A stretch of DNA of 10,920 bases from Amoebophrya sp. AT5.2 (lineage: Eukaryota; Sar; Dinophyceae; Syndiniales; Amoebophryaceae), in contig RXOD01006221.1 in assembly GCA_005223375.1 (NCBI GenBank), forward strand, positions 1 to 10,920. The letters are read 5' to 3'. Shown here piece by piece: positions 2 to 10,920 of this stretch. The notes under the pieces are model-generated. The model was not told the origin of the DNA, ran no database searches, and was given only the letters and a program-made list of their open reading frames with translations. The position numbers and the translations under genes were made by a program. Within the stretch, counting starts at the first letter, position 1. Each line of letters starts with the position of its first letter.

Positions 2-793
2 CCGGTGCTATCGCGGCTGACGACCGAGCAGGCAGGGGCGATCAAGGCATTCCTCGAGAACAATGGGGAGTACGCCGAGGTGGAGGCCCTCATTAAGAAC
101 CTACAGGCGGATCTGCGACATGATGCTCCCCCTGTCGACGACGACGCGGCATCAATGTCCTCCGATGAAGCAGACAGCAGCGACGCCGCCGACATACGGC
201 AGTTCCCGCAGCAGACAGAGGAAGACGGGTTCAAAAAGACCGCGCGAGAGCATGTGTTGCGGGAGATTGCCCGAGAAAACCAGAAGAGGGAGGCACCTTC
301 CGGAACTGCATACTTCGGGTTCTTGGACGACATGCGGGAGCTGTACTTCCGCGCGATCCTTGCCCAGTACCCGTACTACGACACGGAAGAAGGAAGCGAG
401 ATCAAGTTCAAGAAAACCTCGGGAGGACGGCGGGGAGAGCAACGGTATATTGTGAGTATACCACCAATGAACAAGCTGGCGCACCGGATCGGGCAACCTC
501 GGGATTCGAAGGAGACCCTCGCCAGCATTATCCTCCAGCTGGAGAACGAGTCGCTCCTGCTCGCGTTGCGGAACAAGAGGAAGTGGATCGTCGAGACGAC
601 GATCGAAGCGGAACTGCTACGCTGTACGCGAGTGCAGCTGATCTACGACGCGCCAGAATTGAAGAAGATGATGAAGGTGGACATCAGCAAAACGCCGCAG
701 ATCCAGAACATGGCAGAGATGCGGATTGCGAAGATCAACCACACGAGGACCGGGGAGATGGATGAGATCGATTCGGTGATCGACACTCCATTC
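2..793 (+). other. N-terminal region of the visible polyprotein, unknown function
   Basis: Residues 1-264 precede the helicase core. Roughly residues 40-75 form an acidic, Asp/Ser/Gln-rich low-complexity stretch, probably disordered. After it come charged, likely helical segments with aromatic clusters (PYYD near residue 124) and a stretch rich in Leu, Glu and Lys around 175-235. No zinc-binding Cys/His cluster is present, unlike the N-terminal zinc domain of nidovirus helicases or UPF1. The last 60 or so residues directly before the Walker A motif may be the helicase's own N-terminal or 1B-like accessory part, which is inference from position only. I do not recognise any other family. Confidence 0.5.
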
Positions 794-3700
794 GTTGAAG
801 GGATGGGGACGCTGAAGAAAGGTTCCTTGTTCGTCTTCCATGGTCCGTTCGGAACCGGCAAGAGTCGTTCGCAGGTTGCAGCAGCACGCCTGTGGGCCAA
901 GAAGAGCGCGAGACTGCTGAAGGACACCGGTGGAGTCGTCCAGCTTACTTCCGCCTGCAACGAGCAAGTAGTCTCCCTGGCAAGACGGTTGCAGAAATCG
1001 GAGGATCGAGATCGCACACTGTGGTTACCATCGGACGCGTACCACAAGAAGAACGTGTTCAAGGAGCACGAGCTCTACGAGATCTCGTTTCACGGCAGGA
1101 TTGCGGCGGCCGCGGCGGCTGGCGGAAAGATGGAACAGCGGTATCTCGAGCTGGCCGAGAAGCTCGCGAAGTCGGACCGGGGGACAGCGTTTCACATCAA
1201 ATCCTCGTACTCATTGGAAGATGAGGAGGAGCATGGCGAACTCCGGCTGACGCTGCAAAACGAGTACATCACGAGGCACACGTTTATTTGTTCCACAATC
1301 TGCGTCGGCTTCACGGTACAAGAGAAGGCCAAGTCTCTGTACACGTCGGTCGACGAGGCGGGGCAGCTGTCCGACCTGCTCCTCATGTTGGTCGCGAACA
1401 CGGACATCCTGATCCTCGCAGGATGCTACCTACAGCTGCAGGCAAACATGGCATCTGTATCGTGTTCGTTTCCTGAACTGGAGGCAATGAAAAACAACCT
1501 CATGGCACGCCTTGCGGAAGCCAACGAGATCGAGCACGCGCTGCCGACGCAGTACCGGTGTGCGCATGAGATCGCTGATCTCGTCATCGACGCCGTGTAC
1601 AATAGGAACCTTCAGACTGCGGATGCGGCACCAACGGAGAGTCCCTGGGACTTCGCAGACCCGTTGGCATTCGTCGACGCCGGGATCGACGACAGGCCCA
1701 CGACGGCACTCGTTTCGCAGAAGTGCGGGACGATCGCGGTGACGCTGCTGCGATACTTCCAGAGTCGAGGGGTGAAAGCTTTCATTATCACGCAGCACCT
1801 GCCGCAGCTTGCGTGGTATCATGCACTGGGGCTTACCTCGAAGGAAGTGCCCAATGTGGACAAAATTCAAGGAATCGAGGTCGATGTCGTAATCGGAGAT
1901 CTCGTGAGCTGGAACGAGCAGGGGCTCTCCGCGAAGACGCGTTCGTTCCGCCGCGGAAACGTGCTGATAACGCGAGGAAAAAGCGCTGTCGTGCTCGTCG
2001 GTGCAGCGGAAACCGTGGCGAAGAAGCCTTCCCTCTACACCTACGCGATGCTGACATGCGCATCGCGAGGTTCCTTTTTCAGCGGGGCGGACGATTACAC
2101 TCAGTCGTGCGTTTTCGCGAATAAGGAAACCGGGGAGGGGAAGGTAAAGGCGTTGACGAGCGCGGCCTTCGACACTGACGTCAAGACGACTCCCGGATCG
2201 CTGGAGGACCTTACTGCCGATTGGAAGATTTCGCGCCATTTCCTGAAGTACCATGAGGCGGAGGACACGGCGAGCTGGCTGCTTTCACAGATCCAGGCCG
2301 GCGAGCGGGTCGGGATCGCGCGGTGGGCGGATACATCAGAGAACTCCGTCGCGTGGACGAAGATGCTGGAGGCACTTATCCCACACCTTGCAGGACGGAA
2401 CTGCACCATCATGCTGGTCGACGACGCAGGGCGAGTCGGACTTAAGGACGTCGATCTCCCGGAGGAACCTTCCGGTGCGGAAGTAGAAGGGAAGATTAAC
2501 TTCTTCCATGCCGGAAGCAACGACGGGTTCCTGAGGTACTTCGGCAATTTCGATTCCGGCATGGACGACCTCCAGCTTACCATGATCGAGTCGGGACAAG
2601 GGCGAGTGTTTCCAACCGATTGTGCGCAGAAAATCCCACCGATGCCGGAGACGACGGTGAATGCAGACGGGGAGTCGAACTTCGTGATCGCAGCCGGGAA
2701 CGCGAAGTCCAGCGATGGAAAGAGGTTCCTTGACGCCAGCAGGGTAATGGTATTCGGGGAGTGTCGGATTTGGCTCGGAGGGATCAAGTCGCGACGCGGA
2801 CGCAGTGACTGGGCGCGGGTCTTTAACTGTACCCGCAACATCGACCTCGTAGATGAGAGTGATATACGGGCGCCGATGGCCTTTAAGGATCCTGCGAACT
2901 GTCTGCGAGCGATGCAACAGATGCTGCTGGAGTTAATCAAAAACACACCGGCCAGTGGGGACATTTTGTTCCACTGTGCGCAGGGAGTGGACCGGTCGGC
3001 GCTCTGCGCGTACTCGTTGGGGTACGTCATCTGCGGCAGGGATATCCGAGATGAAATTATTCTCGTACGACCAGAAGTGCGGCAGTACGGTCTCCACATC
3101 TACCAGATGTGGTGCACCTGGGCGGATAAGCACGGATGGAATTTGGTCACGGCGCCCTCGATCGGGCTCGAGGAGGAGATCGCGTGCGAGTACAACACGA
3201 GGAAGACCAACGCCGTCTTCAAGTATACGTGCTTCAAAGGAGAAACGCCTGGGGGTAAGGAGATCCAGATCTGGGTACTGACGTGGAACGTCGGAGCGAA
3301 GGCGGCGGAGAAACTCTGCGTGCAGGACCCGGACAAGCTGCGCAAGGCTGTGGTGGGCTTTGAGTTCTACGCCATCGGATGGCAGGAGCTGCGCATCCGG
3401 GACGCGCGCGTTGCAGCTGTCCTCGGCATGCTGAGCGAGATCCTGGCGTGCGATACATACTACAACGCCAAGCTCACAGGCTGGAGCATCTCGAAGAATC
3501 TTCGCGGTCTCTACGAGATCGAATACCCCGAAGGATTCGATGACGGTCGCGTTACAACGATCAAGTTCAACACGGAAGGGGCTGCCGCTGGTGCTCCGGG
3601 CTTCACACCGGCGATCGTGAACTCCTACACACCGAACAGCGGTGGTGACGGGTCGAATAAAGCAGCATCCGGAAAAGGAGAGGAGAAAACCGCAGCGCGG

Positions 3701-6700
3701 AAGCGGCACGACGCGGCGATGAAATGCTACATCCAGAGCCTCAACGACGCGGGGTTCGAGGTCTCGCTGGTGGGTGACCTGAACGTCCTATCAGTCGAGG
3801 ACAAGCGGTCTTTTCTCGTCGGCATGCCGTCGAACTCCGACTGGGAGCGGGAAAGCCTCCAAACGCTGATCGAGGGCGGGGATTTCGTGGACCACGGCGG
3901 CGCAGGTGACACGACGTACATCTCGTGGTCCTTTCCTCGGTGGAAAGGACGATTGGAATACTTCCTCATGAGCCGACTCATGAGCAGCAGCGGCCGGCTT
4001 GATCTGAAGGCCAGGTGGCTCGGGAACTACGCGGAGTCCGTGCGCCTGGGGAATTACGATCACACCGCTGGGGTGCTTGCCATGAAGTACCGGCTGCCGG
4101 TCGAGGACGCCAAGCCGACGGAGGAACCTGCAGGGGAGACGAGTGTCGTCAGCGCGACGGGCGATCACGAGGCAGCGTCCACCGATGTCGAGGTCAGAAG
4201 TGGGGAAACCGCGACTGTCAAAAGTGCAACAAGCGGGGCGACGACCAGCACAACGGCCGGCGTGGAGCAGTCGCGCGGATACGGGTCGCTTTCCTTTTGG
4301 AAGCGGGTGGTGTCCGAGGTTGAGACGGCAAGGAAGGAACCTTCCACGCAAGGTGAACCGCCGTCGTACTTTGGTGCGAGTAACCCGCCGCCGTACTGGG
4401 GCAACTTCTTCTTCGCAAGCAGCATCGACAAGCGCGCGAACGAGTTCGGAGCACAACGACGGCGAGAGGTTCACGAGGAAAACCAGGTGTACCGTTCGAA
4501 GACTGTCGACTACGCGGAGGAGCCGACGCCGGAGTGCCCGTTCAAGTGGAGTGACGCTGTACTGTCGTGGGACGAAGGGAAGGAGCGCGTCCAGGAAGCG
4601 GAGAAGCGGCATAATCACGGTCGACTTCCGTGTCCGGAGATTGTCATCGAGAACCGCAGCTCACATCAAGTTGCGATTGCGGAAGGGCAAAAGGGCCGGT
4701 GCCCCTCCGTGCTCGTCTTCGCGGATGGCGTCTCGCCTGGTGGGCGTATCGCGTCAGGAAGCTCGTTGCAGGAAGAAGAAACGCTCCGCACGTGCCCGAC
4801 AGCGTACGGATCGCTGTGCGCCTGCGACATGTACCCGCTCGGAGCTCCATGTGGACGAGCAGGAGTTCTTGAACTGTATACTCACATCGCGAGACACGGA
4901 GGCGACCAGGGGTACAAGTTTCTCCCGGAACCGCTAAGAGCTACCCTGTTGATGGCTCCGGCGCCACGGCGACACGACAAGCAAGAGTTGTACGAGGAGG
5001 TTTTTCGTACCATCCTGCTCGCAGCGGAAGGAACCGGAATTCAGCAGGCACCGCCGGCGGACGAGATAACGTTCATCACCGGGTTCTGGGGGTGTGGCGC
5101 CTTCGGCTTTGACGTGATGAGGGCCATGGAGATTCAGTGCCGCCTGCTGTATGAGCACGGCCCGAGCCTCTACAAGGCGGGTGTCACCAAGGTCGTCTTC
5201 GCATTTCCTGGATGGAAGGTTCCTCCAGGGCAAGAGGAAGCAAGGGGGGTGGTCCATAACCTCACGCGGAAGATTCGCGAGTCGAGCGAAGGAACGGCGA
5301 TGTTGCGGGTGATGAACGCGATGCACGAACAGATCGAGGACGCGAGTCCAAAGTCTTCGAGTGTGCCAGGATCGCTGAAGGCTACTACCGCAGCTGCAAC
5401 TGCAGAGGAAATGGCGGAAGCGGAGCGTGTCCAAGAAGAGGCGTTCCGAAAACGGAAGAAGAAATTCGAGGATGGGGCAACAACTTGGAACCCCGAGGTG
5501 AAGAAGTTGCTCGAGTCATCGACAGCTGCAAAGGTCGCCGAGATCTGCAGCCGCAACGAAGGCGACCCGTTTCAAGCGCTCATGTATGACGACGCGAGCT
5601 TCGTCGACAAGACCTCGTTCGGCTGTGCTGTCAAAACGCGCAAAAACGCGGACGCCGCGGTCGACATCGATGCAGAATTTGGGCTGGATAAGACAAAGCT
5701 CGGGTGCCGCGAGGGGACCCTGGTTGGCGTGAACCTGAAAGAGGGGACGATGGCAATCACGCCGGAGCGCGTCGAGTTCTTCGTGAACTCGCCGGTCGTG
5801 CCGTATTTCGCCCGGGACATGCGGCACAAGTTGTGTCTGCTTATCTGGTGCGAGAACAAGCTGATCGCCAGCCCAAAGGTCGCGCTCTTGGTCAAAAAGT
5901 ACTGTTCAAAATGGGGCCGCTGCACCGAGGAGGAGTACAAGAACATCGCGCATGACGAGGCAGCGATCAAGTGTCTCCGGATTTTGACGGCATCTGCCGC
6001 CGTCTCTCCGCTGCACGCGGTTGACCGCGAGGGGATCCGCGCAGGGCGCGTAATCTGGGTTAGCATCGTGGACTCGATGAGCGAGGGCACCGCCCACCTC
6101 AGCGGGAACGTGAAGAAGACGCTCTTCTACGCCGTAGGGGAGGAAGGGAAGGAACCTTCCAACATGGACATCAGGAAGAACATGGAGGTCTGCTACGTTT
6201 ACAACATATGCTTCAAGGAGGAAGATTACGAGTACGAGCCGGCAGACTACGAGGGGATGGGGCTGCTTGACATGTTCATGCGCGTGGACGTGCGGGTAGA
6301 AGACGTGGCGCCGCGAGTGATCATCTCGGACTGCCAGGGACTCGTTTTGCGGCGGAACTACCACCACTGTACCGACAAGGCACAGGTGCGCAGGATGAAG
6401 CTGCTCGATCGCTGCATGCAGAAACCCGGAGTCCAGATGATGCTTTCGGCCAGGGAAACCCTCGATATCGTCGACGGGATGGCAAACTCGGACCGGAGGA
6501 TGTTCGTCGCAGGAACGCCCGGGCAAAGGAAGCTCGCCACGCCGAACGAGGTTCTCCGCGAACTCTTCCCACTCCAGCGCAAAGTCTCCAAGTTCGAACC
6601 CAAGGAGTGGGCGAAGATGAAGGCCACCTTGCCGCAGCCGAAGGCGCCAACGAAGAAGCGCAAGGGTGGAAACAGTGGACCGACTGGGTTCGAGCTTGAA

Positions 6701-9700
6701 TCGCGGAGTGGCGGCGCGCCACAGCCGGACGGCGAAGAAGACGAAGAAACACCGCCGCTGGCGCCGCCGGGGCCGGTCGAGCGTCCGCGATCACTCGAGG
6801 ACATGGCAACAGCGTCTGAGAAGGTCGTAGGTTCAAGTTCGACCAGAAGGATGTACGGCACGTACAACAAAACCGGGGGAGCGACCGGAGGTGCAGACAA
6901 GGGTACCCGTGTGAGGTACCTTGTTGACCGCGAAGACCAGTTGCCGGCGATCAAGCAAGTCTCGCTGAAGACGAAGGGGATCAAGCCCGTGGTGAGCGAC
7001 TACATCGAGAAATATTACCTGGCGGAGAAGACAGGAGCAATTTTCCGGCACAGAATCCCAAAGCTATCGAAGAGCGAGGGAATGAAGAACGTATACCAGG
7101 ACCAGTGGCGGAAGTGGGTCGGAATGGGGAATTTCGAAAACACGCAGCGACCGTCGCGGGTGGACGCGATGCAGTTTCTCGTCGAGATGTCCGTCACCGT
7201 AGAAACATACGGTGGAGAACTACAGATCCGGCGCGAGCGTGTGGTTCGCTACGACGCGCTGAACGGAACAGGCGGGCCACTCCGTACGCGAATCGTCGTG
7301 AAGGTTCCTTCTGCGTTGAACGACTCGCGGATCGAAGCGAGGGAGCTGAATGAAGAGACCTGCGTGTGGGCAATGTACAACTCACCTAACATCGAACCTG
7401 TTTCGATGTTCCAGGTCGAGTCAGCAATGCAAAACACCGCAGAGGCCAGTCTCAAAGCGACGATGTACGCGATGTTCCCGAGCCTGAAGGTTCCTCCACC
7501 AGCGGACGGGCGGCGCAACGATCTTGATGCAGCACTGCAAACGAGGCGTCGCGGGGCAGAAGCGTTGCGGACCGAGCTGAAGGATCTACCGTTCGTCGAA
7601 GTCAACGAGTACGAGGGGCGGTTGCGGGACTTTCTGCAGTTCCTCGGCGGCTTCATCTCCGCACCACGGAAGGCGATTTGTAGAATGACGGACGAGTTCG
7701 TTCTGTGGGTACACCAGGCGGCGGGGTGTTCGCGAGTCAAGCAGATGGAAAATGCCTGCCGACTCGCGGGATATCTCGAGGAGTACGACGGGCAGATTAA
7801 ACGTGTGATCGAGGGCTGTGAAAGATGTCTCGGACATCTCGACAAGCAGCAGCCGGAGACGACCCACTCGTTGGAGATAAATGATAGGCAAACCGTCGAG
7901 GTGGATATTACCTGGGCAGATCCAACGGCTGGACCGATAACACGAGGAAGGGTACACCTCGTCGACATCGGGGAGGAGCTCTTCGATGAGTGGCAGGAGG
8001 AGCAGGGGAAGAACCAGCTGCATTACGAGGAGACGGGAAATTTCCTCGGGGGTAAGCGCCCATACAGAATGGTAACGAATGGGGTGTACGAGTTTTCCGT
8101 CGAGCGGGCCTGGGGACCAGATAAGGTACCTTTCCCGGAGCACGTGATGAAGTTTGAGCGGCGCTTTCTCGCGAAAGACGGGATCCGGGTGCTGCGAGTG
8201 TCCGACAAGGAGGCGCGAGGATGTCAGACAGCAACGTACTGGACGGCACAGGGCGTCAGTCTGGACACGACCCCGATGCACGCGCCGAACCGCTCGACGG
8301 CGCTAATCGGTTCGCGGCAGTACTACTGGTCCGTCGCGATGAAGGATCTCGAGGCGTACCGCATCGAGCACGGGTTGACCGAGAAGCAGAAGGAGCTCAT
8401 GGCGGAGCAGCAGTGCAATGCGCTGCATCGCGATGGCATCCATTTGGACGAGCTGACGGGATCCAAGTCGGAGCATGACTTCTGGATGTCTCGGCAGGCG
8501 ATCGGGCTTGCGGAAGCCGCAGTCGTTGGGAGGATCCTGCGCAGCAACATCGTGAACCTGGCGCGTACAAGGAAGTACACGAAGTACACCTCGCTGCGAC
8601 CAAGGGCGCCAGCAAGCTCCGCGGCGCATCCGCGGGTACTGCGGACGCTCGTCCACCACCCGAAGGGGGACCAAATCGCGATCGTCGGGTCGAACCCGGT
8701 GCTCGGGTCGGAAATCGCGACTTCCGGCGCCGCGCCGCTGCTACGCAGACCGTCCGCGATGGTGTGGGCGAAGAACAAGCCGGAGCATCAGAGCTGGGGG
8801 TACCTGGATATCACGCCAACGATCGACAAGCAGCGACTCGTCGACTCGTACGGAGTGTGGCGCAGCTATCCGATCGCGGTCGAGCCCGGAGTGGCGATCG
8901 GCTCGAAGGACAGTGCAGCAGGGAAGGTTCCTTTCGAAATGCATCACGAGGTGACACAAAAGGAGTTGGAGAAGATCTGCTGCAATTTCGACGTGCGGCT
9001 CGCAGCCGCGATTACGCACTTCAAGGTCCAGCCGGTCCGCTCGAGCGACACCACAGGAACGATGCCGAACCGACTCGCAGCAGTGAACGTCGACTCCGCG
9101 GTCGCATGGGACCTCAGTACAAACTCGCACGACGGATGCTACGTTCTTTCGGCAGACGGGATTCCGCAGAATTTCATCGGGCGAGGACTCGGAGAGCAGC
9201 AGGTCAGGATGAAGTTCGGTGAGCCGCCGGAGAAGCGACGGCGCATGCTATGGAAAACGCACGCGGCGATAGAAGGTACCTATACATACTACCTGTGGAT
9301 CGCTGTCGACGGACTCCCGCCGGTGAAGACGGGAATGTTCGACCATGGGACGCTCGGAATGGAGGCGACGTTCCGGATGACGAAACCGCGGCGGGAGTAC
9401 GTAGACGACGCGACAGCGAAGTACGCGTACAAATACGGCCGAGGAATGCAACTGCTGGGAATCCTCGAGCAGATGATCGGGACAGTCCGCTTCTTCTACA
9501 CGCGGGATACGGAAACCGACCCCAGCGCGAAGCTCCGTCACGAGGACCTCGTGGATACGCTCAACGTGTACGAGCAAGGAATCGCGTTTCTGCTGGAGGG
9601 GACAGTCGTCGCCGCGCTCTCGAGGGGGGTGATCTTGCGGTGGAGCGCCTACGCCGGTGAAAACGATCGCGGAAGAAGTGTCGTTGAGGAATTCCGGTCC

Positions 9701-10920
9701 GGGAAGTTCGACGCGGTAAAGCCGGGAGCCGACGCCGAGAAGCTGCCGTTCGGGAAGTTAGTAAAAACACTGACGACGGACGGGAAGGTCCAGATCGCGA
9801 AGTTCCCAATGGAGCAGAAGATCGTCGGCGGGCATCGGAAGGATTCGGCGCTCAGCATCCTGGTTGGCCGCGTGAAGATGGACACGCGAGAGATCACAGA
9901 CCCGCCGGATCGTGGTGAGGCAGAAGCGGCATACCAGCGACGCGCGGAAGCCGACAAGCACGAGGCGGCAGGAGGAACCTTCCTCCGGATAGCAACAAAG
10001 AGTAGCGTGAAGGCGGTGCCGATACAAACGCTGTCCTATCCGCGACTTAAGCAAGCAGAACTTCGCACTGCGGCGGCGGAGCAGTGCTATCCCGGCAAGG
10101 GACGGGAGGTCCGCTTTCCATATCTTTCGTACGGGACGAAAATGGTCATGTTTTGCCCCGCAGGACCGAGCGGAGAAGTGATTTACTCGCCGCCGGAAGG
10201 GGAATGCCCGATGGCCTTCGCGCGAGAGCAGCAGGAAACTGTCAAGCGGAATGGGGGTACGCCGGCAAGAGAACTTGACGTCGCGGAGGACCTCGAGGAC
10301 ACGGGTTGCGAGGCAGGGCAAACCTCATCGGATAATGCGACGGAGCAGGACTTTCCGCGGGCCGAACTCGTAATTCATTCGTGCCACTACGAAGAGGTCG
10401 AGGAACGCTTGTTCCAATACGGATGGCAATCGTACGTGTGGCACCCAACACATGATAAGGTGCACACGACAAACGGGTTTGCAGGATCCTTTACGGAACG
10501 GGACCCGAAAACCCGGCGCTTTCAACTCGCGAAAATGGGCACGAGCGGGCGCATCTACCGCGAGGATCCGCGTCTGTCCTACCGGATCCGGATACAAGGA
10601 GGAGGCGGGGCGCCGTTTACCCGGGGAAATCTCGACATGCGGGGATCTGAGTCGGTGATGAAACACGCACCGGCACACTCGGGACTCGTCACGGTGCGCA
10701 ACCCGGACGGATCGACGAAACGGATCAGCGTCGACGTATCCGCGTTCATCCCGCGCTGCATCGGAGCAATGACCGCGGTCTGGAACAAACGCAGCGCGAA
10801 GGTGCACTCAAAAAGCGTCGGGGACAACGTGGACCAGGGGCCGGGGGACATCATCGTGGGAGGTTCCTCTGGAGCAGGTGGGGCAAAGCCGCCGATCGTC
10901 TACGAGACGACTCAGCCCGG
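2..10920 (+). CDS. Giant multidomain polyprotein, partial at both ends
   Basis: Translation from base 2 runs through 3,639 sense codons with no stop, followed by two bases of an incomplete codon. Neither the start nor the stop codon lies in the window, so the full protein is longer. Domains recognised in order are an SF1 UPF1-like helicase, a dual-specificity phosphatase, an EEP nuclease/phosphatase, a microbial-type PARG and an integrase-like zinc finger plus core. Large unrecognised stretches lie between and after them. Low-complexity linkers separate several blocks, as expected of a polyprotein or a beads-on-a-string protein. No processing protease or polymerase was recognised. The motifs are in one consistent frame, and codon choice is similar throughout, which argues against frameshifts. 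It could be a viral polyprotein, a retroelement-derived polyprotein, or a very large host gene. The open frame is certain; the biological class is not. Confidence 0.96.
794..2077 (+). other. Superfamily 1 (UPF1-like, SF1B) helicase domain
   Basis: NTP-driven unwinding or remodelling of RNA or DNA. Motifs appear in canonical order. Walker A GPFGTGKS is at residues 281-288 (842-865). A Ia-like segment TSACNEQVVSLARRL follows. Motif II is DEAGQ at 451-455 (1352-1366). Motif III is LILAGCYLQL near 471-480. QYR at 517-519, followed by a Y-x-R-x-L-type segment, matches the UPF1-family motif before the second RecA domain. IITQHLPQL resembles motif IV. VDKIQGIEVDVVI at 619-631 is motif V, and NVLITRGKSAVVLVG at 653-667 is motif VI with its arginine finger at 658. 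The set is typical of UPF1/Dna2/nidovirus-type SF1B enzymes. The invariant Asp of motif III (GDxxQL) is Cys475 here, so activity may be modified. Insertions between motifs Ia and II are long. Family assignment is strong; substrate and polarity are inferred only. Confidence 0.88.
2078..2743 (+). other. Unrecognised segment between helicase and phosphatase
   Basis: About 222 residues (693-914) that look globular: alternating hydrophobic stretches, Trp-containing helices around residues 750-785, and a beta-like IMLVDDAGR near 804. A DSG-M-DD sequence at 851-856 superficially resembles the retropepsin active site, but no second half, flap or glycine-rich strand follows it. I do not call a protease. 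The C-terminal part leads directly into the phosphatase fold and may contain its first strand. Function unknown. Confidence 0.4.
2744..3142 (+). other. Dual-specificity / RNA-triphosphatase-type cysteine phosphatase domain
   Basis: The signature loop FHCAQGVDRSA lies at residues 990-1000 (2969-3001). It carries nucleophile Cys992, Arg998 and Ser999, exactly the HCx5R(S/T) motif of the protein tyrosine phosphatase superfamily. About 40 residues upstream, the segment IDLVDESDI (945-953 region) holds candidate general-acid aspartates at 951 and 954, where dual-specificity enzymes place theirs. A WLGG strand-turn at 924-927 resembles the start of the DSP fold. Length (about 133 residues) suits a DSP or a capping RNA 5'-triphosphatase (Mce1/DUSP11 type), not a classical PTP. 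In a helicase-containing polyprotein, an RNA 5'-phosphatase role is attractive, but protein or phosphoinositide phosphatase activity cannot be excluded. All catalytic residues I can identify are present. Confidence 0.82.
3143..3256 (+). other. Short bridge between phosphatase and EEP domains
   Basis: Residues 1048-1085. A mildly acidic segment (GLEEEIACEYN) is followed by Lys/Thr-rich sequence and a short beta-like stretch. It is too short for a separate domain and probably joins the two enzyme folds, which are adjacent without a low-complexity spacer. Confidence 0.4.
3257..4105 (+). other. Endonuclease/exonuclease/phosphatase (EEP, APE-like) domain
   Basis: Metal-dependent phosphodiesterase or phosphomonoesterase fold (DNase I / ExoIII / LINE endonuclease / CCR4 / inositol 5-phosphatase superfamily). 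Motifs seen in order: VLTWNVG with Asn1096; AIGWQEL with metal-ligand Glu1129; VNSYTPNS with Tyr1209; LVGDLNV with Asp1259 and Asn1261; TYISW followed by RLEYFLMS, the equivalent of the usual R-x-D-Y-I-L strand (Arg1317, with Glu1319 in the Asp place); and YDH with Asp1353 and His1354. The catalytic set is therefore essentially complete. The layout of N-x-Y-P-N, G-D-x-N, T-x-x-x-W, R-x-(D/E)-Y is closest to ExoIII/APE and non-LTR retrotransposon endonucleases. IPPc-type phosphatase or RNA 3'-end nuclease roles remain possible. A glycine- and charge-rich insertion sits between the Tyr and GDLN motifs (about residues 1212-1240). Confidence 0.8.
4106..4435 (+). other. Ser/Thr/Glu-rich low-complexity linker
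   Basis: Residues 1369-1478. The first half is dominated by Ser, Thr, Ala, Glu and Gly, with several S/T runs, and is probably disordered. The second half has Pro/Tyr/Phe clusters (PPSYFG, PPPYWGNFFF around 1452-1470) that could be short interaction motifs or a buried strand of the next domain. It separates the EEP and PARG domains. No enzymatic motif seen. Confidence 0.6.
4436..5215 (+). other. Microbial-type poly(ADP-ribose) glycohydrolase (PARG) macrodomain
   Basis: PARGs hydrolyse ribose-ribose bonds of poly(ADP-ribose) and reverse ADP-ribosylation. The bacterial-type signature GGG-x7-QEE is seen as GGR-x7-QEE, with PGG at residues 1579-1581 and Gln1590-Glu1591-Glu1592 (4736-4780). The preceding VLVFADGVS corresponds to the usual hydrophobic NFA-type strand. 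Downstream, TLLMAPAPRRHD matches the family's A-P-N/R region. GFWGCGAFGFDV (1695-1706) matches the G-x-W-G-C-G-x-F-G-N-D loop, with Phe1701 positioned to stack on the ligand. The N-terminal extension with EENQVY and the IVIENRSS segment also fits the family's N-terminal part. The third Gly of GGG is Arg, and the Asn after FG is Phe; the catalytic Glu pair is intact. Confidence in the family is high; activity is likely but untested. Confidence 0.84.
5216..5533 (+). other. Charged helical region with basic cluster
   Basis: Residues 1739-1844. Rich in Glu, Lys, Arg and Ala. EEMAEAERVQEEAFRKRKKK (about 1802-1821) is predicted by eye to be a long amphipathic helix or coiled coil. The RKRKKK cluster at 1816-1821 (5447-5464) could act as a nuclear localisation signal or nucleic-acid contact. 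Likely a tether or oligomerisation segment between the PARG and the next block. Confidence 0.5.
5534..6610 (+). other. Unrecognised globular block
   Basis: About 359 residues (1845-2203) with mixed hydrophobic and charged composition and several Cys residues. It looks folded, not disordered. A YDD followed 30 residues later by GLDKTK (around 1861-1896) recalls the palm of non-LTR reverse transcriptases, but the flanking motifs A and B are missing, so I do not call it. Beta-rich stretches appear around 2020-2110 (VIWVSIVDSM, CYVYNICF, RVDVRVEDVAPRVIISD). Position between PARG and the integrase-like part gives no firm clue. Function unknown. Confidence 0.4.
6611..6880 (+). other. Basic, proline- and acid-rich linker with NLS-like cluster
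   Basis: Residues 2204-2293. It starts Lys/Pro-rich, with APTKKRKGG at about 2215-2223 resembling a monopartite nuclear localisation signal. It continues through Gly/Ser/Pro and an acidic run (DGEEDEE), then PPLAPPGPVERP. Almost certainly disordered, separating two globular regions. If the basic cluster works as an NLS, the protein or a processed fragment acts in a nucleus. That would fit a DNA-based or retro-like life cycle better than a purely cytoplasmic one. Confidence 0.6.
6881..7663 (+). other. Unrecognised block upstream of the integrase-like region
   Basis: About 261 residues (2294-2554). Segments with alternating hydrophobics and charges (VDAMQFLVEMSVTVETYGG near 2393, TRIVVKVPSALN near 2432) suggest a beta-rich fold. 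It is followed by a helical Arg/Leu-rich region (about 2503-2540) that runs into the zinc-finger segment. In LTR retroelements with RT before integrase, RNase H would sit here, but I cannot see the D-E-D-D set of RNase H. Unknown. Confidence 0.4.
7664..8380 (+). other. Integrase-like zinc-binding domain and degenerate integrase core
   Basis: The N-terminal part matches the retroelement integrase zinc finger (H-x4-H-x29-C-x2-C) in spacing. His2571 and Cys2576 (in HQAAGC, where the usual H-x3-G-H has Cys for the second His) are followed after exactly 29 residues by CERC, Cys2606 and Cys2609. The sequence before CERC (GYLEEYDGQIKRVIEG) aligns without gaps to the typical Y-W-P-x-M-x-x-D-V-x-x-Y-V segment. 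A core-like region follows: TVEVDITW with Asp2635, HLVDIG, then VLRVSD with Asp2735, and TPMHAPNRSTAL, resembling the P-x-H-P-Q-x-N-G-x-x-E segment. The two Asp are about 100 residues apart (usually 50-65), and the Glu expected 35 residues later is absent (Ser2771). The fold match is good at the zinc finger and weaker at the core. Probably catalytically altered, or a repurposed DNA-binding module. Confidence 0.5.
8381..10918 (+). other. C-terminal 846 residues of the window, no recognised domain
   Basis: Residues 2794-3639. Mostly globular-looking, with Lys/Arg/Glu-rich helices and beta-like stretches. Regions that stand out: a basic segment around 2840-2870 (ARTRKYTKYTSLRPRAP); a YVDD tetrad at 3133-3136 followed by a helix-like LLGILEQM; an acidic, probably disordered stretch at about 3415-3455 (ELDVAEDLEDTG onward); a His/Trp/Tyr-rich block around 3460-3490 (HSCHYEE, YGWQSYVWHPTHDKVHTT); and a Gly-rich end (GGSSGAGG). 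None forms a motif set I can assign to a family. A reverse transcriptase would be expected here in a copia-like order (integrase then RT), but the required motifs are not convincing. Confidence 0.4.

Follow-up and report, generated by a model that had tools for sequence, protein, structure and literature searches.

A giant open frame in an Amoebophrya assembly: possible fragment of an enzyme-capturing retroelement

The window, i.e. the whole stretch of DNA analysed here, is the complete contig C2425 (10,920 bp) of a 50.7-Mb assembly. It carries a single stop-free frame of 3639 codons (2..10918, forward strand, as for all domains below) that spans the entire contig and is open at each contig end; the remaining five frames contain 73, 110, 63, 101 and 30 stops. 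Because one frame runs without a stop across the whole contig, the N- and C-terminal ends of its protein are both missing. The reading we favour, with evenly balanced confidence, is that of a fragment of a mobile element with a giant ORF, probably a retroelement that has captured a cassette of enzymes. This reading is based on decayed related pieces on contig C71, a homologous tail on contig C180, the selection detected between copies and the presence of other long element frames in the assembly. Its mode of action most likely resembles that of an RT-type retroelement (Ty3- or DIRS-like). We assign it to no known family, and not to the Ty3- or DIRS-like ones, since a complete RT was not found. 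The frame reaches well past positions 794-8380 in both directions, the part to which a preliminary description had assigned the order helicase-DSP-EEP-PARG-integrase. The order of the first four stands, helicase and PARG with significant matches, DSP and EEP by motifs plus weak profile matches, whereas the integrase as fifth domain of the chain is unproven.

The helicase core (812..2044) is that of an SF1 helicase of the Upf1/IGHMBP2-like type. Pfam AAA_12 matched above its curated cut-off (E=1.8e-15 with residues 1-920 as query and 1.4e-14 with the entire frame), TIGR00376 matched at 4.4e-12 (under that model's cut-off), and a PDB search returned UPF1/NAM7 chains (E 3e-6 to 2e-5). Walker A (GPFGTGKS, 842-865), DEAxQ (VDEAGQ, 1349-1366) and motifs IV-VI (QYR at 1550, QGIEVD, NVLITR) are all present and in order, so that the curated-level match, the PDB chains and the motifs bear out the helicase proposed earlier. 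Motif III reads GCYLQL; its usual form in SF1 helicases is GDxxQL. Helentron helicases are of the Pif1 type, and a Helentron reading was rejected, as a search of the window that admitted matches up to E=1 returned neither a Rep nor a PIF1 model.

The DSP-like and EEP-type identities rest on full catalytic motifs with weak profile matches. The putative dual-specificity-phosphatase-like domain (2720..3190, limits approximate) has a complete P-loop, HCAQGVDRS at 2972-2998, which fits HCxxGxxR[ST]; the DSPc profile did no better than 0.026 (range 0.026-0.17), and the PHROG dual specificity phosphatase matched at 0.17; the earlier assignment accords with the motif and, weakly, with the profiles. 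In the putative EEP-type nuclease/phosphatase domain (3263..4081, limits approximate) the catalytic set occurs in order (TWNV 3281, QEL 3383, GDLN 3773, YDH 4055-4063). Two exonuclease III models matched at 0.007 and INPP5K at 0.17; in favour of the EEP claim are thus the ordered motifs and exonuclease III, whereas no Pfam EEP model matched the window, which is also missing among the 19 genome-wide PF03372 matches.

A PARG domain of the bacterial/microbial type is predicted at 4604..5236. The signature PGGRIASGSSLQEEE lies at 4736-4780 with the Glu pair retained, and 3sig matched with E=3e-9 with QEE aligned; this similarity, which includes the catalytic Glu pair, upholds the PARG named in the preliminary description. 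TIGR02452 matched at 2.7e-8, under the model's cut-off, as were the Pfam PARG models.

Downstream of the PARG domain, positions 5906..6592 are homologous to the C-terminal part of a 5980-codon frame on C180 (33.7 kb). Genome searches gave E=1.7e-4 and 6.6e-5, and the 27-bit score compares with at most 3.2 bits in 500 shuffles. This conserved segment had been missed in the first reading of the sequence. It contains VDSMSEGTA, E and IISDCQGLV, a D-E-D pattern common to the window and the C180 tail, with no RNase H profile match. Ahead of it, 5582..5905 may be the C-terminal half of a reverse transcriptase (MYDD at 5582-5593, FGLDKTK, LVG); Pfam and NCBIfam searches gave no match there, and RT motif A, fingers and an ID.R.N pattern were found nowhere in the 3639 codons. 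By motif, using regular expressions that were composed after the sequences had been inspected, we infer that 5906-6592 is RNase H-like with an RT tail ahead of it. Preceding the homologous tail on C180 are RLVIDLRPIN, VEMDVAKAFNCL (Asp 30 residues past Asn) and MPALWGQRTGPKF, which we take to be the fingers, motif A and motif B of an LTR-type RT; a canonical YxDD was not found in the part of the C180 frame that was read. No Pfam, NCBIfam or PDB match to RT, RNase H or integrase occurred in the window or in the tested C180 pieces. The C180 frame includes its own SF1 helicase (AAA_12 9.3e-16, AAA_11 8.1e-11). The similarity of the two helicases was no greater than that of shuffles, and the cassette is therefore not shared by descent at a detectable level; a common origin of the two helicases was rejected as unsupported by this comparison.

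Regarding the integrase, the core proposed earlier (7859..8401) is unsupported, and its zinc-binding module corresponds to a Cys/His cluster with one His (His, then Cys, Cys, C-x2-C; 7712..7828) found by regular expression only; the D-D-like spacing was seen by eye only. The Pfam rve profile did not match the window, which is not among the assembly's 14 rve matches. A profile built from seven local integrases was tested on the window and also on the reversed window and 50 shuffles; the window was not reported, yet 13 of the 50 shuffles were. An AlphaFold2 model calculated without alignment reached a pLDDT of 34. Profile and sequence searches agree with the preliminary description for helicase and PARG, weakly for DSP and EEP, and not for the integrase.

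Four stretches of C71 (42.5 kb) match the frame with 56-81% amino-acid identity: 23857-23961, 24137-24352 (interrupted by TGA), 24361-24561 and 41633-41761 (interrupted by TAG). The decayed pieces thus occupy two places. Within the 1 kb read, the first three contain a stop and a frameshift and lie about 2.2 kb closer together than their counterparts in the window; parts of the EEP and tail regions are retained inside 0.7 kb. A dN/dS of 0.13 over 171 codons and a pN/pS of 0.24 (bootstrap 0.17-0.33) indicate purifying selection between the copies. Further distant relatives were found on C180 and, weakly, on C244 (28655-28966). Related copies thus exist elsewhere in the genome; their mobility is putative, and those on C71 may be remnants of a pseudogene. 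Other giant frames with a helicase lie on C1747, C292, C1681 and C60. Other long frames of the assembly carry element domains: rve occurs in frames as long as 2820 codons, C305 combines rve and EEP within one 1901-codon frame, and C2424 carries an RVT_1 element.

The foremost alternative, which we consider unlikely, is an ordinary, very large host gene with several domains for RNA/ADP-ribose metabolism, the C71 pieces being pseudogene fragments. Such a gene would agree with the purifying selection, with the single full-length copy found in searches of the assembly, with a codon usage closest to that of a WSC-domain gene (33 frames compared) and with the frequency of long frames (at least 1800 codons in three of 20 sampled 10-kb stretches). 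Against it stand the tail common to a second giant frame whose helicase shows no detectable similarity, the decayed pieces at two places of C71 and a load of the palindrome AGGWWCCT unlike that of 20 sampled stretches.

AGGWWCCT occurs at 20 dispersed sites in the frame (820..10868, strand-symmetric) vs. 0.40 expected, about fifty times chance; the sites start at 820, 1604, 2068, 2463, 2723, 2886, 4122, 4335, 5217, 6150, 6914, 7302, 7488, 8124, 8531, 8925, 9274, 9973, 10483 and 10861. None of 200 shuffles attained 20 sites. A coding artefact was ruled out by synonymous shuffling (mean 1.09, maximum 5, n=1000), and the sites fall in every codon phase. The palindrome is also present in the C71 copy; the 20 sampled host stretches hold 15 sites in all, in 200 kb. 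Nothing matching it was seen among the introner target sites of Amoebophrya in the available text of PMC7789003, and the literature matches listed for the two 8-mer strings held nothing informative. The palindrome load, which the preliminary description had not reported, is an unexplained DNA-level signal over coding sequence. Its enrichment would mean strong selection at the DNA level superimposed on the coding sequence.

An SF1 helicase together with an ADP-ribose-binding or -cleaving domain recalls large RNA viruses, and the assembly is mixed, as the bacterial-looking contig C1391 with its Mu-type transposase demonstrates. An endogenised or co-sequenced virus, whether as a polyprotein of RNA-virus type or as a piece of a DNA virus, is nevertheless improbable: polymerase and capsid are absent from the profile matches of the part of the protein available, IMG/VR scans gave no relative, the helicase is Upf1/IGHMBP2-like with no Viral_helicase1 match at E up to 1 (that model matches the C180 helicase at 0.0015), the codon usage is host-like, and the palindrome, being strand-symmetric, points to a DNA stage. 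The RNA-virus side of the earlier suggestion was dropped as first choice, given a contig within a genome assembly, the palindrome and no RdRp among the Pfam matches of a protein missing both ends.

A contig from another eukaryote in the mixed assembly, in which AGGWWCCT might be genome-wide, would account for synonymous codon preferences somewhat unlike those of the host sample, and for the rarity of the palindrome in 200 kb of host sequence, and would be in keeping with contaminants such as C1391. The relatives on C71 and C180 in the same assembly make this quite improbable, as does the base composition (GC at the top of the range of sampled frames, GC3 inside it). An assembly chimera fusing unrelated genes in frame has nothing but the odd domain mix in its favour and is scarcely credible with 3639 codons free of stops, quarters whose codon usage lies close to the whole (distance 2.0-2.6 vs. 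at least 3.5 for any other frame, each quarter being part of the whole), palindromes distributed from 820 to 10861 and EEP and tail parts together on C71.

In the favoured retroelement reading, one polyprotein would begin with a captured N-terminal cassette (SF1 helicase, DSP, EEP nuclease, PARG), followed by a Pol-like part consisting of an RT remnant, an RNase H-like domain and possibly an integrase, and would be cut into separate enzymes. RNase H and integrase would serve cDNA synthesis and insertion, with the RT presumably provided in trans, since the window lacks motif A. The cassette may aid the element's RNA or cDNA: the helicase would unwind, the DSP trim 5' phosphates, the EEP domain nick targets and PARG erase host ADP-ribosylation. 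No LTR, Gag or protease was found in the window, whose contig ends lie inside the frame; the available portion of the frame lacks both a CCHC knuckle and a D[ST]G[AS] motif.

A new lineage of element, as the preliminary description had it, is made plausible by the C180 tail and the C71 copies, but not on the side of an RNA virus or an integrase. More tentatively, a new class of giant elements of protist-like eukaryotes is conceivable, with interchangeable cassettes, a shared diverged tail and an AGGWWCCT code in one lineage. Its members would measure 3,600 to 6,000 or more residues and combine unrelated SF1 helicases, DSP, EEP and PARG with a common, extremely diverged tail of RT/RNase H type. 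The palindromes, regularly spaced about every 0.5 kb, might be recognised by a DNA-binding protein that acts as a dimer and belongs to the element or the host, with a role in silencing, packaging or copy recognition. If the tail is indeed RT/RNase H-like, it is too diverged for standard profiles, and comparable giants could be overlooked in the genomes of protists.

No protein with the order helicase-DSP-EEP-PARG was found in searches of 5.8 billion proteins or in IMG/VR scans, and no described family with it among the literature matches listed, in agreement with the earlier statement that none was known. The RNA/ADP-ribose enzyme set was likewise absent from retroelements among the literature matches listed; if the window derives from a retroelement, it would widen the known cargo by a set suited to countering host defence. 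Regarding known systems, Helentrons also combine a helicase and an AP/EEP-type endonuclease in a single long protein (PMC6431247, as far as available), but have Rep plus helicase, whereas the window gave no Rep or PIF1 match. According to the same partial text, the Terminons of bdelloid rotifers are likewise giant, reaching 40 kb, and carry an assortment of accessory enzymes, but have a Penelope-like RT, are telomeric and place their accessory functions partly in separate ORFs. Insect retrotransposons with an SF1 helicase fused in the polyprotein have been described (PMC6338049; PMC5563155); their helicase is of RNA-virus origin (PMC6338049), in contrast to the Upf1/IGHMBP2-like one of the window, and DSP and PARG are not mentioned in the available parts of either paper. 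LINE and DIRS retrotransposons of Symbiodinium carry DNMTs and resemble the window, as interpreted here, in being protist retroelements whose intronless frames hold captured enzymes and in their EEP, RT and RNase H domains, but differ in that the captured enzyme is a DNA methyltransferase, the RT is recognised by Pfam and the copies number hundreds (PMC5890265, in the text available). The planarian Burro elements are Ty3/gypsy-like giants with an ORF of about 5,000 aa and, together with the Symbiodinium and insect elements, provide a precedent for accessory domains in the polyprotein of a retroelement; in the accessible portion of PMC6431247, their extras include SMC, BIR, BCL2, ankyrin, MATH and a midasin-like ATPase, with helicase, DSP, EEP and PARG not named. 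Unlike the window, Burro exists in thousands of copies and its Gag, PR, RT, RH, IN and LTRs are recognisable, but it shares with the window, as interpreted here, a polyprotein of enormous length (4,873 and 5,140 aa in Burro) in which many accessory domains are chained to Pol domains, as well as decayed copies, in the case of Burro in a relative (PMC6431247, same portion).

The window spans the complete contig C2425 (10,920 bp) of an assembly of 50,716,278 bases in 2759 contigs. A single frame (2-10918, 3639 codons) is open throughout and continues past both contig ends, the remaining five frames holding 30 to 110 stops apiece. The limits of 794-8380 proposed in the preliminary description lie inside this frame but delimit only the inner part of a longer protein. 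Neither an Rfam match at gathering score, nor tandem repeats, nor a terminal-repeat pair were found in the window. The best-supported reading, weighed against a giant host gene, a viral origin, a contig from another organism and an assembly chimera, is a mobile-element polyprotein with an enzyme cassette.

The proposed chain of SF1 helicase, dual-specificity phosphatase (DSP), exonuclease-endonuclease-phosphatase-type domain (EEP), PARG and integrase stood in its first four members, DSP and EEP by their motifs, and gained no support in the last. The SF1 helicase (residues 271-681) matches AAA_12 (1.8e-15), TIGR00376 (IGHMBP2 family; 4.4e-12, under that model's cut-off) and UPF1/NAM7 structures (3e-6 to 2e-5), with motifs I, II and IV-VI found and motif III altered. 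PARG (residues about 1535-1745) matches 3sig (3e-9) and TIGR02452 (2.7e-8, under its cut-off, as is Pfam alone), with QEE aligned. The P-loop of the DSP, HCAQGVDRS, is complete (DSPc profile 0.026 at best). The EEP motifs TWNV, QEL, NSYTPN, GDLN and YDH occur in that order, and two exonuclease III models match at 0.007; the EEP has no Pfam match in the window and is not among the 19 matches of a PF03372 search across the genome. We accept both predicted identities on motif strength. The integrase reading was not adopted: the integrase profile rve has no match in the window, the window is not among 14 genome-wide rve matches, and a profile built from seven integrases of the same genome, which reported 13 of 50 shuffles, reported neither the window nor its reverse. 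An AlphaFold2 model of the integrase-like piece, from the lone sequence, has a pLDDT of 34, and no PDB chains were found for residues 1801-3639 at E up to 5.

Positions 5906-6592 match C180:31924-32601 (E 1.7e-4; reverse search 6.6e-5) with 27 bits, versus at most 3.2 in 500 shuffles. The match lies in a second giant frame (14872-32811, plus strand, 5980 codons, stop at 32812; partly L045, L047 and L048), the domain content of which comes from parts mostly outside 18601-30300. Upstream of the common tail, C180 carries RLVIDLRPIN, VEMDVAKAFNCL and MPALWGQRTGPKF, the Asp of VEMDVAKAFNCL standing 30 residues past the Asn; we take this order and spacing to match LTR-type reverse transcriptases (RTs), in which the fingers are followed by motifs A and B. 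The window tail holds MYDD, FGLDKTK and LVG, the half complementary to that of C180, and an RNase H-like D...E...D pattern comes next in both. Profile libraries and PDB searches gave no support for RT or RNase H. Read through motif patterns that were written after the sequences had been read, the common tail has about an even chance of being RT/RNase H. If so, this copy, being without RT motif A, would depend on an RT supplied in trans or be heading for decay. A weak third relative, with one TGA, lies at C244:28655-28966 (E 9.9e-4).

The C180 frame also has an SF1 helicase near its start (L047; AAA_12 9.3e-16, AAA_11 8.1e-11). Against the window helicase it scores like shuffles, with no detectable kinship; a host IGHMBP2-like gene scores 26.7 bits. 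This outcome would be consistent with separate captures. Further AAA_12 helicases lie in frames of 1859-4342 codons on C1747, C292, C1681, C60, C996 and C450; these may also belong to the giant-frame group, or be genes of the host.

Decayed copies of the gene were found on C71 at 23857-24561 and 41633-41761, using window pieces 5402-7201 and 2102-4330. Over 1 kb, identity is 73% over 33 residues in the EEP part and 81% over 72 and 73% over 67 residues in the tail; the gap between these parts is 0.2 kb on C71 versus 2.4 kb in the window, and the C71 stretch carries a frameshift and a stop. In aligned parts picked by similarity, and hence biased toward conserved stretches, dS is 1.31 and dN 0.167 (ratio 0.13; 171/172 aligned codons), pN/pS is 0.24 (bootstrap 0.17-0.33), and third positions hold 73 of the 131 differences. 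Still, most of the copies' evolution was that of a working protein, until one decayed.

A giant host gene would share its setting with other long frames, which are usual in this genome (at least 1800 codons in three of 20 sampled 10-kb stretches). The helicase piece weakly matches the host IGHMBP2-like gene, which has AAA_11/12, R3H and AN1 domains (1.2e-4); a match of the same kind links the PARG piece to a microbial-type PARG gene of the host on C2427 (2.2e-6). In the same genome, the C-terminal 839 residues and the integrase-like piece match themselves only. Of 33 frames compared, the one most like the window in codon usage is a WSC-domain gene, followed by an RVT_1 element on C2424, an unnamed C2300 frame (L028) and a copia element. 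A copia element (RVT_2, SH3, rve), the LINE-like C2424 element (L030:3312-8714; 1801-codon frame, RVT_1, EEP-like motifs by eye) and a 1901-codon frame on C305 (L044; C305:449-2320, minus strand; rve at 7.8e-5, then EEP at 2.8e-4) attest to a varied retroelement fauna. Another element family (L040 and L043, on C1935 and C1954) has rve matches in long frames (2820 and 1541 codons), where a protease-like DSCASH motif and, at the C terminus, a Cys/His finger are seen by eye. As to a virus, IMG/VR scans gave no relative of the window. Queries of 5.8 billion proteins with the whole frame, 6842-8401 and the two-sequence alignment A1 gave no match.

The palindrome AGGWWCCT occurs at 20 sites (820-10868) versus 0.40 expected, a count reached in 0 of 200 shuffles; AGGAACCT/AGGTTCCT account for 14 occurrences versus 0.17 expected, and AGGSSCCT for 0 versus 0.47. 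Synonymous-codon shuffles keeping protein and codon usage gave a mean of 1.09 and a maximum of 5 in 1000, and when all 64 possible arms of such a palindrome are compared, AGG is the clear outlier (20 versus 1.1; runner-up 3). The sites fall 10, 6 and 4 by codon phase, differ in the peptides they encode and have a more regular spacing than points placed at random (CV 0.53, P 0.002). Judged from these patterns, the palindrome reflects selection on DNA, or paired RNA, not protein. There are 15 sites in a 200-kb host sample, none in 6.4 kb of C180 pieces and three in 1.0 kb of C71, where window site 6150 is identical (11 bases) amid a poorly conserved stretch and the remaining two lie just beyond the alignable parts. 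Three sites were also seen in 10 kb of C2424. Were C71 and C2425 from another organism with genome-wide AGGWWCCT, the same pattern would be expected; the assembly is mixed, a Mu-type transposase (C1391:13598-13981, L038; GC3 0.92) lying on a bacterial-looking contig in an otherwise eukaryote-like assembly. As for a chimera, the palindrome marks the contig over its full length as a single unit.

For the mobile-element polyprotein, beyond the observed frame, helicase, PARG, copies and constraint, we infer RT/RNase H activity, integration and polyprotein processing, with a cassette that may serve unwinding, 5'-phosphate removal, nicking and reversal of ADP-ribosylation. Titles and abstracts of the literature searched, with most subscription papers outside its coverage, held no description of this kind of combination. 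Captured enzymes in protist retroelements include DNMTs (PMC5890265), and SF1 helicases occur in insect retrotransposons (PMC6338049). Nearest in kind to the proposed element is Burro (PMC6431247).
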